Below are positions 35,819-40,168 of a stretch of DNA of 64,000 nucleotides, piece by piece. A program made the position numbers and the translations under genes. Below the pieces are notes generated by a model that did no database searches, had not been told where the DNA came from, and worked only from the letters and a program-made list of their open reading frames with translations. Location: NCBI GenBank assembly GCA_015039365.1, contig WION01000179.1:45490-109489 (forward strand). Reading direction: 5' to 3'. The stretch's first letter is position 1. Each line of letters begins with the position of its first letter. The DNA is from Amanita rubescens (taxonomy: Eukaryota > Basidiomycota > Agaricomycetes > Agaricales > Amanitaceae).

Positions 35819-35821
35819 ATG

Positions 35822-38800
35822 ATGGCAACTGCAACTTCTAGTGCGGGTAGGCCAATTTATGTTTCTCAGCATGGCTGATCCTTGACATATACCATCAGAT
35901 GTGGATGAGACATATGTTCAAATGCTCAGGGAGCACTATCTATGCCCACACTTTCGCATTCTTGTCATGGGGAGGGCTAATGCAGGCAAGACAACTATCC
36001 TTGAGAAGGTTTGTGGTGTAGCAAGGGGGACAAGGCCCATCATATATTATGGTAGTAAGTTGGTCTGAGTTTTGTGCTTCCTTTGGCTGTTGAGCTTCTT
36101 GCAGGTAATCAGCTTGGACAACAGATTCAAATCATGCCATCACTTGAGGTGACTCAGACCAATGTGTAGATGTACCCATTTACATGCAGTGATAACAGAG
36201 AGGCAAACATGATATTGAGCATCAAATTACATACCCTGGAAGTAACTTTATCTTCCATGACTCTCTGGGTTTTGAATCTGGTTCAACTGAGGAATTGGGG
36301 ATTACTTGGAAGTTCATTGAAAAGAAGTCTGCAGAAACTGAGCTGAAAAACCAGCTGCATGCAATTTGGTATCTTGCTTTATCCCATTACAATACTGGCT
36401 GACCTGCCTCTAGGTACTGTATACCCATGGATGACCCTCGTCCCATTCTACCTGCTGAACTTGAATTCTTCAATAAAGGGACAGGCAGAGGCAAGTCCTA
36501 ATGAATTCATATCTCATCTTGTTGCACTTGCTGGATTAACTATTGTACCTCCTTTCCATTGGCAAACTTCCCACAAATCTACTAGTACTGACTAGTAAAT
36601 ATTTCCTTTATAGTTCCTTTGGTGGTTATATTCACCAAATTTGATGGTCAAATAGCAAGTGCATTTGTCAACTTGACTGATACAAACTTGAATGATGAAG
36701 ATAAGTGGGAGAGAGCCAGGAACATTGCTGAAATCACTTTTCAGCAAGTTTATCTTCCTAAAGTTTTGGAAGTGAACTATCCTCCCAAGGCATTTGTGCG
36801 GTTTGAAGGTGAGAATGATGAGTATTTCTTCTTGAAAATGGGAGTGATGTTCTTTTATAGATCTGGATTTACCAGAGAATGATTGTGCTGAATTGACTCA
36901 GACAACTGCTGATGTCATAGATAGTGATAGCATGCACCAGCTGTTTATTTCAACACAGATGAATAATCTTGACCTTTGTGTTAAATCTGCACTTCGGTGA
37001 GGGTCAAATTCACAATGTCACTTACTAACATTGACAATGTTCAGACATGTTCTGAAACATCAACATTTGACATGGGATCATGTCATCATCATAGTTTTTT
37101 CAAAATTTCCACATTTCTGGGTATGCATTTTGGTCAAACTGCACATTAGTATAGGAAAAGTTATAATGTCAATAGGTTGACAGGGAGGTAGGTGGCCTTC
37201 ATATGGAATGACAAAGACTTGCAAAAAGTTCATCAGGAGGTAAGTAACACTCCACTGCCTTCAAATGAAAAAAAAAAAACCAGTCATACCTCAGATGTCT
37301 AATCAACAACTAAGTGAAACAGAGGTTAGTTGTCACCATATTCTTGCTGGCAGGATCTGATGACATTAATATCAGTGGGTGAGTGGCATTGAACTGGCAT
37401 AGATCTGATATATTTTCTCATGACAACAGTTTGTGAGCAATGTGTCCTTTCACCATCAGCAGTCTTATCTCCAATACTCTACAGGAAGTGAGTGACATGA
37501 CCCAATTTTGATTTTTGGTAAATGAACCTATGGTGACCAACAGCAAGTAAGTTACTCCATCTTTATAAGCAGACTTGTCAATCCTTCATGGACAGGGAGT
37601 GAGTAACACAACACTGCCTCACACCACATCTGACCTGCTTAAAGAAAGTAAGCAACATTGATGTTGCCCAAGTTCTAGTGACATAATTCAATGAACAATA
37701 GAAAGTTGGGTGACTTACTGTTATTTGAAATCAATGCTCAGCAAACTTCATTGTATTAATAACAGGAAGTAAGTGACATTTCCCTCTGTCTGATTATAAA
37801 CATTACATCTTGTCCCAAAACAACAGACAGTAAATATCAATATCTCCCCCTCCCAATTTCTCTTGACAAGCTATTGCAACACAAACAGGATGTATGTGAT
37901 ACTTTTGTGAGATTTGAATTCATCATATGAAATACTATGGCAAAAGAGAGTCAGTGCCATTGTTTTCTGTATTCCCAACTCATTATGCTAATTTAATTCT
38001 TAAAGGAAGTGAGTGTTGCTAGCTGCTCTGCTGCAAGACACTCTGGAGACATTCTCATGTTCTACAGATTGTGAGTGATATTGTGAGTACTAAGCAGTGA
38101 AATCACATCTTTTCCTATAGAAGGTCGGTGTCATGCCAGCTTGTCTCAAAGATGATCTTTTCAAAAAATTTCCTGTGACCTACAGTATGTGAGTAACATT
38201 GCAAATATTTCTAGAAAACTACTCTAAGTATTTTTCCCTATTCCTGACAGGATGTGAGTGACAACATTGAAGATTTTTGTGGATGCAGTCTAATCACATC
38301 TTTTCTATGATCAACAGGGAGTGAGTGAAATTGTATACTTTGTCAAAGACAATCTCATCACATCTTTTCCTACTATGACCAACAGGGAGTGAGTGCTATT
38401 GTACATTTTGTGAAAGGCAGTACATATCATCACATCTTTTCCTATGGCCAACAGGGGGTGAGTTGTATTGCACATTTTATGAAAAGCAGTCATCACATCA
38501 GACCAACAGGGAGTGAGTGACATTGCATACTATGTGAAAGGCAGTCTCATCACATCTTTTCCTATGACCAGCAGTTTGTGAGTGGCATTGGGCATCTTAT
38601 GAAAGGCAATGGGCTCATCACATCCTTTCCTACCAACTTGGAGGTTGTGAGTAATATTGCACATTTGTGTGAAAGGCAGACTCTTTTCCTATGATCAACA
38701 GCGAGTCAGTGACATTGCACAGTTTGTGAAAGCCAGTCTCATCAGATCTTTTCCTATTACCAACAGGGAGTGAGTGACATTGCACATTTTGTGAAAGGTA

Positions 38801-40168
38801 GACCCATCACATCTTTTCCTGTGACCAACAGTTTGTGAGTGACATTGCACATTTTGTGAAAGCCAGTTTCATGACACCTTTCAATTCCTATGACCAACAG
38901 CGAGTCAGTGACATTCAATGTACATTGTGTGATAGCCAGTCTCATCAAACTTTTTCCTATGACCAATAGCTTGTGAGTGACCAGCACATTTGTGAAAGCC
39001 AGTCTCATCACATTTTTCCTATGACCAACAGGGAGTGAGTGACATTGCACATTATATGAAAGGCAGTCTCATGACCATGTCATCTTTTCCTATGACCAAC
39101 AGCTTGTGAGTGACATTGCACATTTTGTGAAAAGTGGACTCATCACATCTTTTCCTATCACTGACAGGAAGTGAGTGATGTTGCACATTTTGTGAAAGGG
39201 AGTCCCATCACAGCTTTTCCTATGACCAACAGGAAGTGAGTGATGTTGCACATTTTGTGAAAGGGAGTCCCATCACATCTTACATACATATATCAGAAAG
39301 TGAGCATATTGCCATATCTTTTCCATGTCTTCCTTTTACATTATTATCATCATAGATTGTAAGATTTCACTTCAGCCCACCCACTTCCACCTCATGTGAT
39401 AATTTTGTTGTCATTTATATTACTTCTAGGTAAGTGATGGTGGTTAATGAGGCATTGATTTTCACATTAGTTTGCATGCTAGTGTGTAGGTTTGATGATA
39501 CATTGGGTGTTTTACTGTCACACTAATCTCACACTAACTAGGATGAACTTTTCTCCATGTTTGGAGACAGGAAACGGCACTTTGCCATCATGGTATTTGA
39601 TCTTTCCTTTCTGAATGATATGCAACTGATACCATTGCAACAAGCCTACTGGTTGCCAGATCTTAGTTTGTAAATTATTCCTTTTCATTTACTGTATTTA
39701 TGCTCAAACTTTGAAGCAATTATTGTCATTGCCAAGCTATCCTTTTGGATCAACAGAGCATTTCTGCCATCTGTTACACAAGCCTTGTATCAATACCAGC
39801 AAAACTGCTATGCTCAGAAGCTGAAGACTGAAATTACTGCCGAATTTCTGCACCCTGGTTATCAAGATATGGTCACATTACTCTATAGGCAGGTGACTCA
39901 CATTGATGGTAGGTTCTTTGTATAGTCATGCATTACTTATGAACAATTTATGGCAGGGTGAAACACCTGGCATTGGATATTCAGGTGATTTATTGGCTGC
40001 ATTGCATTTGCATTGAGATCATATTTATCTGTACACAGATCACTTCTCATATGCCTCTCTTTTGTTATTCATGCATCTGGCTCAATTTTTCTTTTTAATG
40101 TAAACATACATATACATATGTCATTGTTGGGAATACATTTGGCAGGGACACAGGTTGGATGCAAGTAA
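35822..40168 (+). CDS. P-loop GTPase with 35 single-codon exons (49-exon model)
   Basis: GTP-binding protein of a family common in basidiomycetes, function unknown. Exons 1-10: 35822-35846, 35899-36051, 36105-36148, 36199-36368, 36414-36490, 36614-36808, 36861-36996, 37045-37120, 37192-37239, 37295-37324. Next come 33 exons of exactly 3 nt (37376-39358), then 39483-39485, 39542-39592, 39667-39669, 39737-39892, 39957-39984, 40146-40168. The total is 1317 nt in frame. G1 is GRANAGKT, G3 is HDSLGFE and G4 is FTKFD; RGKHDIEHQI, ELKNQLHAIW and YCIPMDDPRP are family hallmarks. The intron after exon 5 has a GC donor (36491). Exons 1-8 are secure because every join falls in a conserved block. Exons 9-10 and the last two are less sure. 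The ATG at 35819 is an in-frame alternative start. The micro-exons rest on unbroken AG-NNN-GT spacing and phase 0; transcripts have not been seen. Confidence 0.75.
37376..39358 (+). other. Array of 33 consecutive 3-nt micro-exons and their introns
   Basis: First base and codon of each: 37376 TGG, 37430 TTT, 37485 GAA, 37544 CAA, 37596 GGA, 37645 AAA, 37702 AAA, 37766 GAA, 37827 ACA, 37889 GAT, 37947 AGA, 38006 GAA, 38068 ATT, 38121 AAG, 38186 TAT, 38251 GAT, 38318 GGA, 38386 GGA, 38455 GGG, 38510 GGA, 38575 TTT, 38644 GTT, 38702 CGA, 38767 GGA, 38832 TTT, 38901 CGA, 38970 CTT, 39032 GGA, 39103 CTT, 39168 GAA, 39233 GAA, 39297 AAA, 39356 ATT. Each follows AG and precedes GT. Introns are 46-68 nt. 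Donors are mostly GTGAGT or GTAAGT, acceptors mostly CAACAG-like after a pyrimidine stretch. No codon is a stop. Two further 3-nt exons, TGT 39483 and TTT 39667, lie downstream. Confidence 0.8.
38254..39296 (+). repeat. Homogeneous part of the micro-exon array (unit about 55-71 bp)
   Basis: Sixteen units in which the intron is strongly conserved: GTGAGTGACATTGCACATTT, then TGTGAAAGGCAGTC, CATCACATCTTTTCCTATGA and CCAACAG. The 3-nt exon varies between units (GGA, TTT, CGA, CTT, GAA). The upstream units 37376-38250 keep the spacing but not the sequence. Confidence 0.9.

Follow-up and report, generated by a model that had tools for sequence, protein, structure and literature searches.

Arrays of predicted one-codon exons between copies of a single intron in a GTPase gene family of Amanita rubescens, a probable source of hypervariability

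INTRODUCTION

The systems closest to the gene reported here have been described in schistosomes, fungi and flies. Schistosome micro-exon genes (MEGs) possess 10-20 exons of 6-81 bp (3-81 in the abstract), mostly of 15 bp, which are separated by introns of 0.1-5 kb and encode secreted proteins (PMC10526429); a 1-nt exon is spliced in CYP621A of Fusarium (PMC12940212), and homothorax has a 3-bp exon in flies (PMC7392893). In the Podospora NWD family, loci exchange WD40 units internally and with one another, and diversifying selection acts on four codons of each unit (PMC1805685, PMC2873952). Here, we analyse a GTPase gene of Amanita rubescens and its paralogs. The gene lies in a window of 64,000 nt (the whole stretch of DNA analysed, C89:45490-109489) within a genome of 75.7 Mb and 786 contigs, and its predicted exons include an array of 33 consecutive exons of one codon each.

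We consider it probable, though well short of certain, that this array is spliced as 33 one-codon exons and likely acts as a generator of hypervariability by means of near-identical introns, recombination and splicing. At the level of sequence, the chain of exons, its open frame, its multiplicity, the master intron common to the arrays and the contrast between codons and introns can be regarded as settled.

RESULTS

A chain of one-codon exons in the window gene

An uninterrupted frame could be assembled from an ATG at 35819 to a TGA at 39961, in a gene model of 48 exons of which 34 have 3 nt. An earlier note on this DNA had pointed to 33 consecutive AG-NNN-GT units in phase 0 between 37376 and 39358, with introns of 46-68 nt and without stop codon. 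We reproduced this chain, and every array exon of the window gene is in phase 0. The array, on the + strand like the rest of the gene, starts with 16 single-codon exons that spell WFEQGKKETDREIKYD (37376..38253; TGG TTT GAA CAA GGA AAA AAA GAA ACA GAT AGA GAA ATT AAG TAT GAT), between which lie 15 decayed introns of 46-62 nt. It continues with 15 single-codon exons (38254..39235; GGA GGA GGG GGA TTT GTT CGA GGA TTT CGA CTT GGA CTT GAA GAA) between recognisable copies, 52-68 nt long, of a 62-nt master intron, and closes with the single-codon exons AAA (K, 39297..39299), which belongs to the conserved final part of the array, and ATT (I, 39356..39358), replaced by AAT in some paralogs.

When chains were sought under an equal spacing rule for exon lengths k from 0 to 9, the longest was the one of 33 units at k=3; a chain of 22 at k=7 is due to the second GT inside GTGAGT, and the other lengths gave at most 4 units. 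The motif AGNNNGTNAGT occurs 26 times in the window, always on the + strand and between 37235 and 39241, against 7.1 expected and a maximum of 16 in 100 shuffles. The distal half of the array is recorded as a 65-nt tandem repeat by Tandem Repeats Finder (TRF).

The frame is kept in most of the arrays read

With the distal half of the window array as query, at least 191 matches were obtained in the A. rubescens genome, and among the matches listed we grouped ∼40 array clusters. The loci read amount to 31 (20, 6 and 4 fetched, and the window); with a further piece of 446 bases from the end of a contig, the count covers 32 pieces. Several loci are near-identical copies, L009 being the same as the window across the compared array stretch. 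A distinct set of 23 arrays leaves out the near-copies L009, L010, L011, L017, L018, L020, L021 and L030 and the short piece L039. According to a chain forced to 3-nt exons, on which both the units per array and the codon diversities given below rest, the number of single codons in an array lies between 33 and 88, apart from 25 in L026, whose upstream anchor could not be located, and most arrays begin WFEQGKKETDREIKY or nearly so. The forced chain loses register at exons of 2, 4 and 6 nt and at AGTGAGT, which creates false stops; it runs without slips in L012, L016 and L022.

Exon length was therefore also left free, by locating the introns through their 5' and 3' ends alone and measuring the gap between copies. 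This count, which replaces those of the forced chain with their false stops (21 TGA in one, and 6 in 'intact' arrays in another), is confined to exons with a recognisable copy of the master intron on both sides, as is the case for 12 of the 33 in the window. In the 32 pieces, near-copies included, 1052 of 1092 exons have 3 nt, 17 have 6 nt and 23 break the frame (17 in L023, 4 in L014, 1 in L017 and 1, unclear, in L026), so that the frame is broken in 4 of 32 pieces. The 23 distinct arrays contain 772 exons of 3 nt, 11 of 6 nt and 22 that break the frame (n=805). Their codons include 1 stop in 794 (a TGA in L028), and 477 are one substitution away from a stop; this count omits the 22 exons of neither 3 nor 6 nt and units with an unrecognisable splice site or flanking intron. 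CpG transitions in CGA should give TGA and CAA with equal chance by strand symmetry, and 1 TGA was observed versus 120 CAA; the corresponding p=9e-35 is only nominal, because CAA has other origins and duplicated codons are not independent. L011, outside the distinct set and with a frameshifted projected core, has one TGA at the place of the window's CGA. Among 300 codons in the older units 1-15 of 20 paralogs there is one TGA (in L022), a register artefact, the true exon being GAA followed by GTGAGT. Off-frame exons (2-, 4-, 1- and 0-nt) make up 4 of 49 in L014 and 17 of 48 in L023, two arrays that are likely decaying copies and a natural control for frame selection.

Thus, the open frame, the near-absence of stops and the intron-free homologous contigs described below make it very likely that the array codons are spliced together and translated. 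The earlier note had argued for selection on single-codon exons instead of passive satellite spread. Its first half is supported by the 31 loci, the stop and frame counts and the intron-free contigs, and the drift heedless of frame and stops that a satellite would show was not found. The second half has to be given up in so far as it excluded amplification, since one intron family implies satellite-like amplification as well.

Contigs C12 (at its end), C650 and C88 (at its start) start or stop only a few bases away from a copy of the master intron, which suggests that arrays interrupt the assembly and that more of them are probably present. A second small run of master-intron copies lies at L025:6853-7311, ∼1.5 kb downstream of the main array of that locus. 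In L030 and L031, the six-nucleotide exons CAATCT, CAATAT and AAATCT recur and resemble precise intron loss or codon gain; the translated strings of both look coiled-coil-like by eye. The contiguous array peptide had no match in its own genome, in a search that the tool itself states to be uninformative, and phage records gave no match.

Introns are alike while codons vary

The count of 33 holds, but it is less striking than how strongly the homogenised introns contrast with the hypervariable codons. In L012, the introns that follow codons 17-38, 22 in number, are identical save one base, and the codons that they separate are CGA, CAA, GGA, GTT, TTT and CCT. Per-site diversity in this array is 0.00 in introns versus 0.39/0.56/0.51 at the three codon bases; the values are 0.01-0.02 versus 0.62/0.71/0.56 in L016 and 0.01-0.05 versus 0.69/0.67/0.58 in L022. 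Over 20 arrays, intron diversity ranges from 0.00 to 0.42, that of codon bases 1 and 2 from 0.39 to 0.76, except for base 1 of L014 (0.14), and that of base 3 from 0.16 to 0.59. In young arrays, intron identity extends right to the codon edges.

The same contrast is seen between recent copies. In an internal tandem duplication of L022, the two copies differ at 11 of 54 bases in codons and at 3 of 1119 in introns. L016 differs from L018 at 4 of 111 codon versus 2 of 2258 intron bases and from L017 at 9 of 108 versus 3 of 2258; for L012 and L013, the figures are 35 of 69 versus 3 of 1363, the pairing of units in such unlike arrays being uncertain. Moreover, L014, L015, L016 and L019 are 1.2-1.8% apart over 1.4 kb upstream, and no pair among them is in the best 12 of 253 comparisons of codon strings with shuffles, suggesting that the strings turn over fast. 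The only clear excess among these best 12 of 253 pairs is that of L023 and L028 (13 versus 7.2 in shuffles).

Arrays with diverged introns behave differently: codon versus intron differences are 0/51 versus 12/990 for the window and L010, 1/51 versus 25/986 for the window and L011, and 8/195 versus 168/4377 for L030 and L031, with L037 and L038 as an exception (36/63 versus 150/1291, unit pairing uncertain). Since old arrays have no codon excess over introns, codon hypermutation was rejected; this makes a fast mutator of codons unlikely and leaves recombination between identical units as the natural shuffler.

Identical neighbouring codons are slightly enriched (143 of 791 pairs versus 110.6 expected, z 3.9). 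With an enrichment this mild, a simple duplication of a 3-nt target with every insertion is not the chief explanation. As for composition, 97% of array codons end in A or T, versus 63% in nine cores, and CGA, GGA and CAA dominate the arrays, while the nine cores use CGA for 9 of 101 Arg. A second acceptor created by NAG codons may explain part of the scarcity of G in array codons; the remainder is unaccounted for.

One master intron in arrays of different age

Across the 23 distinct arrays, the consensus of the 62-nt intron varies by no more than two bases, even where single copies carry 3-7 changes. In seven young arrays (L012-L016, L019 and L022), the mean is 0.0-0.5 changes per copy, <1% from the master. 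The genome holds 791 copies of the master intron with at most 3 mismatches (0 in a reversed control), of which 640 fall in the 31 loci read. Derived variants are rarely common to copies (Jaccard index 0.05-0.11 within arrays, 0.015 between them).

According to the earlier note, the upstream introns of the window array have no obvious similarity beyond splice signals. They are related nonetheless, as consensus introns of units 1-15 align to the master above shuffled sequence: majority consensus introns across paralogs score z 3.2 to 16 for 13 of the 15 units, and z 1.7 and 1.4 for units 4 and 5. The window's own introns in these units are weaker, 4 of 15 being below z 2; for the 11 introns that precede the array, z lies between -1.4 and 2.4. 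Judged from these alignments, the upstream (5') units are the oldest, decayed copies of one intron family, and the 3' copies are younger.

Intron-free contigs contain the array peptide

P0002, encoded by a 386-aa open reading frame on a 1446-nt contig of the Joint Genome Institute (JGI), has no break at the core intron sites and reads VDRAVTNEQLSETK-WFEKGKKESDREIEYDGG after the core; at the place of WFEKGKKESDREIEYDGG, the window exons spell WFEQGKKETDREIKYDGG, one codon each. P0037, from a contig of 1903 nt, reads VGRDEMANKQLSEAQ-WFEHGKKDTDKQIVYDGERLLQRNYEHQYQNLLLLPLQ, and the window exons read VDRE-E-MSNQQLSETE-W-F-E-Q-G-K-K-E-T-D-R-E-I-K-Y-D-G-G. Over the first 18 array residues, P0002 is identical to the window at 15 and P0037 at 12, against shuffle maxima of 10 and 8 (100,000 shuffles each). 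An aligned peptide, which the earlier note had proposed to look for in orthologues, is present in these two homologs and follows the array reliably across 16-18 codons. As the contigs are without introns, they are likely cDNA.

The match includes the exons that precede the array, in which P0002 is one residue shorter. The 12-nt exon VDRE (37176..37187, + strand) corresponds to VDRA in P0002 and VGRD in P0037. It is followed by a further 3-nt exon, GAG (E, 37237..37239, +), which is GTG (V) in several paralogs and stands as V in P0002 and E in P0037. The normal exon that the earlier note had ending at 37324 is confirmed as the 30-nt exon MSNQQLSETE (37295..37324, +), matched by MANKQLSEAQ in P0037 and by the shorter TNEQLSETK in P0002. 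Beyond DGG, the tail of P0002 differs and is possibly frame-shifted, and P0037 stops short of the C-terminal domain.

Three homologs, P0041, P0046 and P0049, are full length and carry dissimilar inserts of ∼20-45 residues at the array's place. P0046 and P0049 share 89% identity overall and, inserts apart, are otherwise close. Of two protein searches with the C-terminal part, one was without match and the other returned P0046 and P0049 only.

The deposited P0001 ('hypothetical protein F5887DRAFT_1064752 [Amanita rubescens]') has 269 residues, equals the predicted core but for one serine, and ends upstream of the array. P0003, P0005 and P0013 of A. rubescens and P0092 of A. muscaria stop 8-17 residues past FPHFW/FPHCW, where an array would start, and the homologs listed from A. 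brunnescens, A. polypyramis and A. muscaria have 225-350 aa. Similar arrays may be truncated in gene models elsewhere in the genus.

Gene model and predicted product

Upstream of the array, the GTPase core (35819..37120, + strand) consists of eight exons in the gene model: 35819-35846, 35899-36054, 36105-36148, 36199-36368, 36414-36490, 36614-36808, 36861-36996 and 37045-37120. The core ends ...SKFPHFW in phase 0. P0001 backs it, including the donor after 36054, for which the first gene model had used 36051, and with this change the product has 413 residues. The fifth intron (36491-36613) has a GC donor (GCAAGT).

A separate TGT exon near 39483, as suggested by the earlier note, is unnecessary, because 39359-39541 can be read as a single 183-nt intron. 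In several paralogs this intron has 74-77 nt; in the window it holds AGGTAAGT and AG-TGT-GT sites, perhaps leftover microexons. The gene resumes with a 51-nt exon, DELFSMFGDRKRHFAIM (39542..39592, +), which begins the C-terminal domain and resembles PELFSVFGEHSTFFSA of P0046. Next come a 10-nt exon, (A/G)TCTTAGTTT (39660..39669, +), conserved in paralogs, and the exon of the C-terminal helical domain, SFLPSVTQALYQYQQ...VTHID (39759..39908, +), which requires the second AG of CAGAG as acceptor and resembles the C-terminus of P0046 and P0049. The last exon (39957..39961, +) contributes G and the stop TGA.

By sequence, the product is a GTPase, with the P-loop GRANAGKTT in the window core. Of the projected cores, 20 of 24 are open, and the median pairwise ratio of non-synonymous to synonymous substitution rates (dN/dS) is 0.47 (268 of 276 pairs), which indicates that function is kept. 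The cores of L011, L025 and L029 look frameshifted, and that of L027 has four stops, partly perhaps by projection error. Pfam matches of the core to GTPases are all sub-threshold, and no NACHT or WD40 family was found by Pfam at E up to 1 in the window core, P0046, P0041 and P0037, for which every family listed falls below its cut-off. The best folding model of P0046 has a mean predicted local distance difference test score (pLDDT) of 78, and confidence is high over most of the G domain and in the C-terminal helical bundle; residues 294-357, which cover the insert site, fall below 50 and have a confident domain on either side. The array product, some 35-90 residues long, is therefore predicted to be a disordered loop that links the GTPase domain to the C-terminal helical domain and is plausibly a recognition surface. 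The structure matches have 11-12% identity; IRG-type GTPases come first, but EngB and septin rows follow within ∼2.5 Z units, and only a GTPase fold is claimable, not a subfamily of the TRAFAC or dynamin superfamily such as IRG or septin.

DISCUSSION

In the mechanism that we propose, near-identical introns would supply homology, and recombination, presumably by unequal crossing-over and by gene conversion over short tracts, would move codons between units. Splicing would then remove all the repeats and leave the variable residues alone, and diversifying selection would keep the codons different and stop-free. With a whole phase-0 codon per exon, units could be added, lost, swapped or skipped without frameshift, while the frame would be shifted if a 62-nt intron were retained. 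An array that no longer recombines would become frozen and its introns would diverge, as the window copy may exemplify. With somewhat less confidence, slightly below an even chance, we suggest that introns and not protein domains are the recombining repeat, by which a receptor-like loop is rewritten residue by residue and without any break of frame, with units possibly skipped at random. As donors and acceptors are all equal, random skipping could yield a family of peptides from one allele.

Conversion that homogenises introns should homogenise codons too. This implies either very strong selection for codon diversity or a homogenisation that respects splice boundaries, which would suggest an RNA template. 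By analogy with the Podospora NWD family we favour strong selection for diverse codons. Several observations weigh against our proposal. In a toy simulation with one run per setting, codon diversity persisted only if at least ∼99% of codon-overwriting conversions were lost, an extreme degree of selection. Some young pairs are without codon change (L020/L022, 0/207 codon versus 1/4219 intron bases; L021/L022, 0/135 versus 7/2730). The first 15 codons (0.12/0.12/0.05) are conserved only mildly more than their introns (0.16), the third base being least variable. The star-like introns in divergent arrays fit bursts better than slow stepwise duplication, and L014 and L023 carry frame-breaking exons, yet their projected cores are open. 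P0002 and P0037 follow the array reliably for 16-18 codons, and their later residues miss the C-terminal domain; P0041, P0046 and P0049 show only a variable insert at the array site. Finally, inclusion of every array exon in the mRNA is inferred.

Of the alternatives, two are the least probable. If splicing took out the whole array as a single long intron, in one step or recursively, the AG-NNN-GT spacing would be a by-product of a minisatellite that contains splice-like motifs. The 65-nt TRF repeat, the fact that any unit can be skipped without frameshift and the end of P0001 before the array agree with such an excision. However, if the codons were not translated, 1 stop in 794 of them and frame breaks in only 4 of 32 pieces would be hard to account for, P0002 and P0037 contain the array peptide, and a variable peptide occupies the array site in the three full-length homologs; we regard excision as one intron as very improbable. 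Equally hard to credit is a neutral runaway, in which an added intron and codon are harmless, only stops and frameshifts are purged and diversity brings no benefit. An extra residue in a disordered loop is possibly near neutral, and arrays span 33 to over 80 units; but neutral codons linked to introns should be as uniform as these, and the toy model without selection ends at a codon diversity of 0.00, against the 0.39-0.76 that 19 of 20 arrays show at codon bases 1 and 2.

Two further alternatives, both unlikely in our view though less so than the preceding ones, concern the introns. Mobile, introner-like copies could have invaded an older contiguous exon between its codons, as the single master intron, its star-like copies, the different ages of arrays, the intron identity up to codon edges and the variable insert in relatives would allow. 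However, we know of no cause for insertion at every codon boundary and in phase 0 only, and the A/T-ending codon usage of the arrays, set against that of the nine cores, disfavours insertion into a normal exon. In addition, the fetched flanks hold 8 copies outside main arrays, all in the second small array of L025, the listed genome matches (∼100 of 791 and ∼150 of 410) are all in array contigs or at contig ends, and the L022 segment duplication moved codons and introns together. The other alternative is homogenisation of introns alone through RNA, by reverse splicing or cDNA-templated repair, with old codon diversity and no need for strong diversifying selection. It would explain why the border between identity and variability lies exactly at splice sites, and would avoid the selective loss that the DNA conversion model demands. 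To our knowledge, no process that homogenises introns and preserves codons exists in fungi; moreover, the codon strings of paralogs 1.2-1.8% apart have no clear similarity and so were not simply preserved, and the near-identical L016, L017 and L018 show codon replacements.

If shuffling of one-codon exons between identical introns is true, introns directly take part in making protein diversity. It would also constitute a new extreme for the spliceosome, with 34 three-nucleotide exons in the window gene and over 80 in paralogs, and would account for the early end of the deposited gene model. Two questions become testable: splicing fidelity with many equal sites, and repeat-driven hypervariability in fungal NTPases beyond translated repeats.

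No described counterpart was found in the open-access literature searched, and PMC9860276 contains none of six terms looked for in its text, among them Amanita, basidiomyc and microexon. The known systems each resemble the Amanita arrays in part. Like schistosome MEGs (PMC10526429), the arrays consist of runs of tiny exons with lengths mostly in multiples of 3 (33 in the window; 1069 of 1092 exons of 3 or 6 nt over all pieces), concern variable proteins and are hard to annotate. Unlike MEGs, they have 33 to over 80 exons of 3 nt inside a GTPase, and their introns belong to one sequence family and are mostly 45-71 nt (46-68 nt in the window array) and not 0.1-5 kb. Podospora hnwd/NWD genes (PMC1805685, PMC2873952) likewise form an NTPase family with repeats homogenised within and between loci and few hypervariable codons per unit. 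In Amanita, the consensus introns of the 23 distinct arrays show 0-2 differences from one master, single copies being near identical in young arrays only, where the lone codon varies and its flanks are constant. However, the NACHT plus WD40 architecture of hnwd/NWD proteins was not detected by Pfam at E up to 1, and the hnwd repeat has as its body a WD40 unit that is translated and contains 4 codons under selection, whereas the body of the Amanita repeat is an intron removed by predicted splicing, with one codon. Fungal introner-like elements also provide many near-identical introns per genome (PMC4457414), but the Amanita copies listed are head-to-tail, in one gene family and at 3-nt spacing. 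The known 1-nt and 3-nt micro-exons are isolated, one per gene, whereas dozens are consecutive in Amanita.

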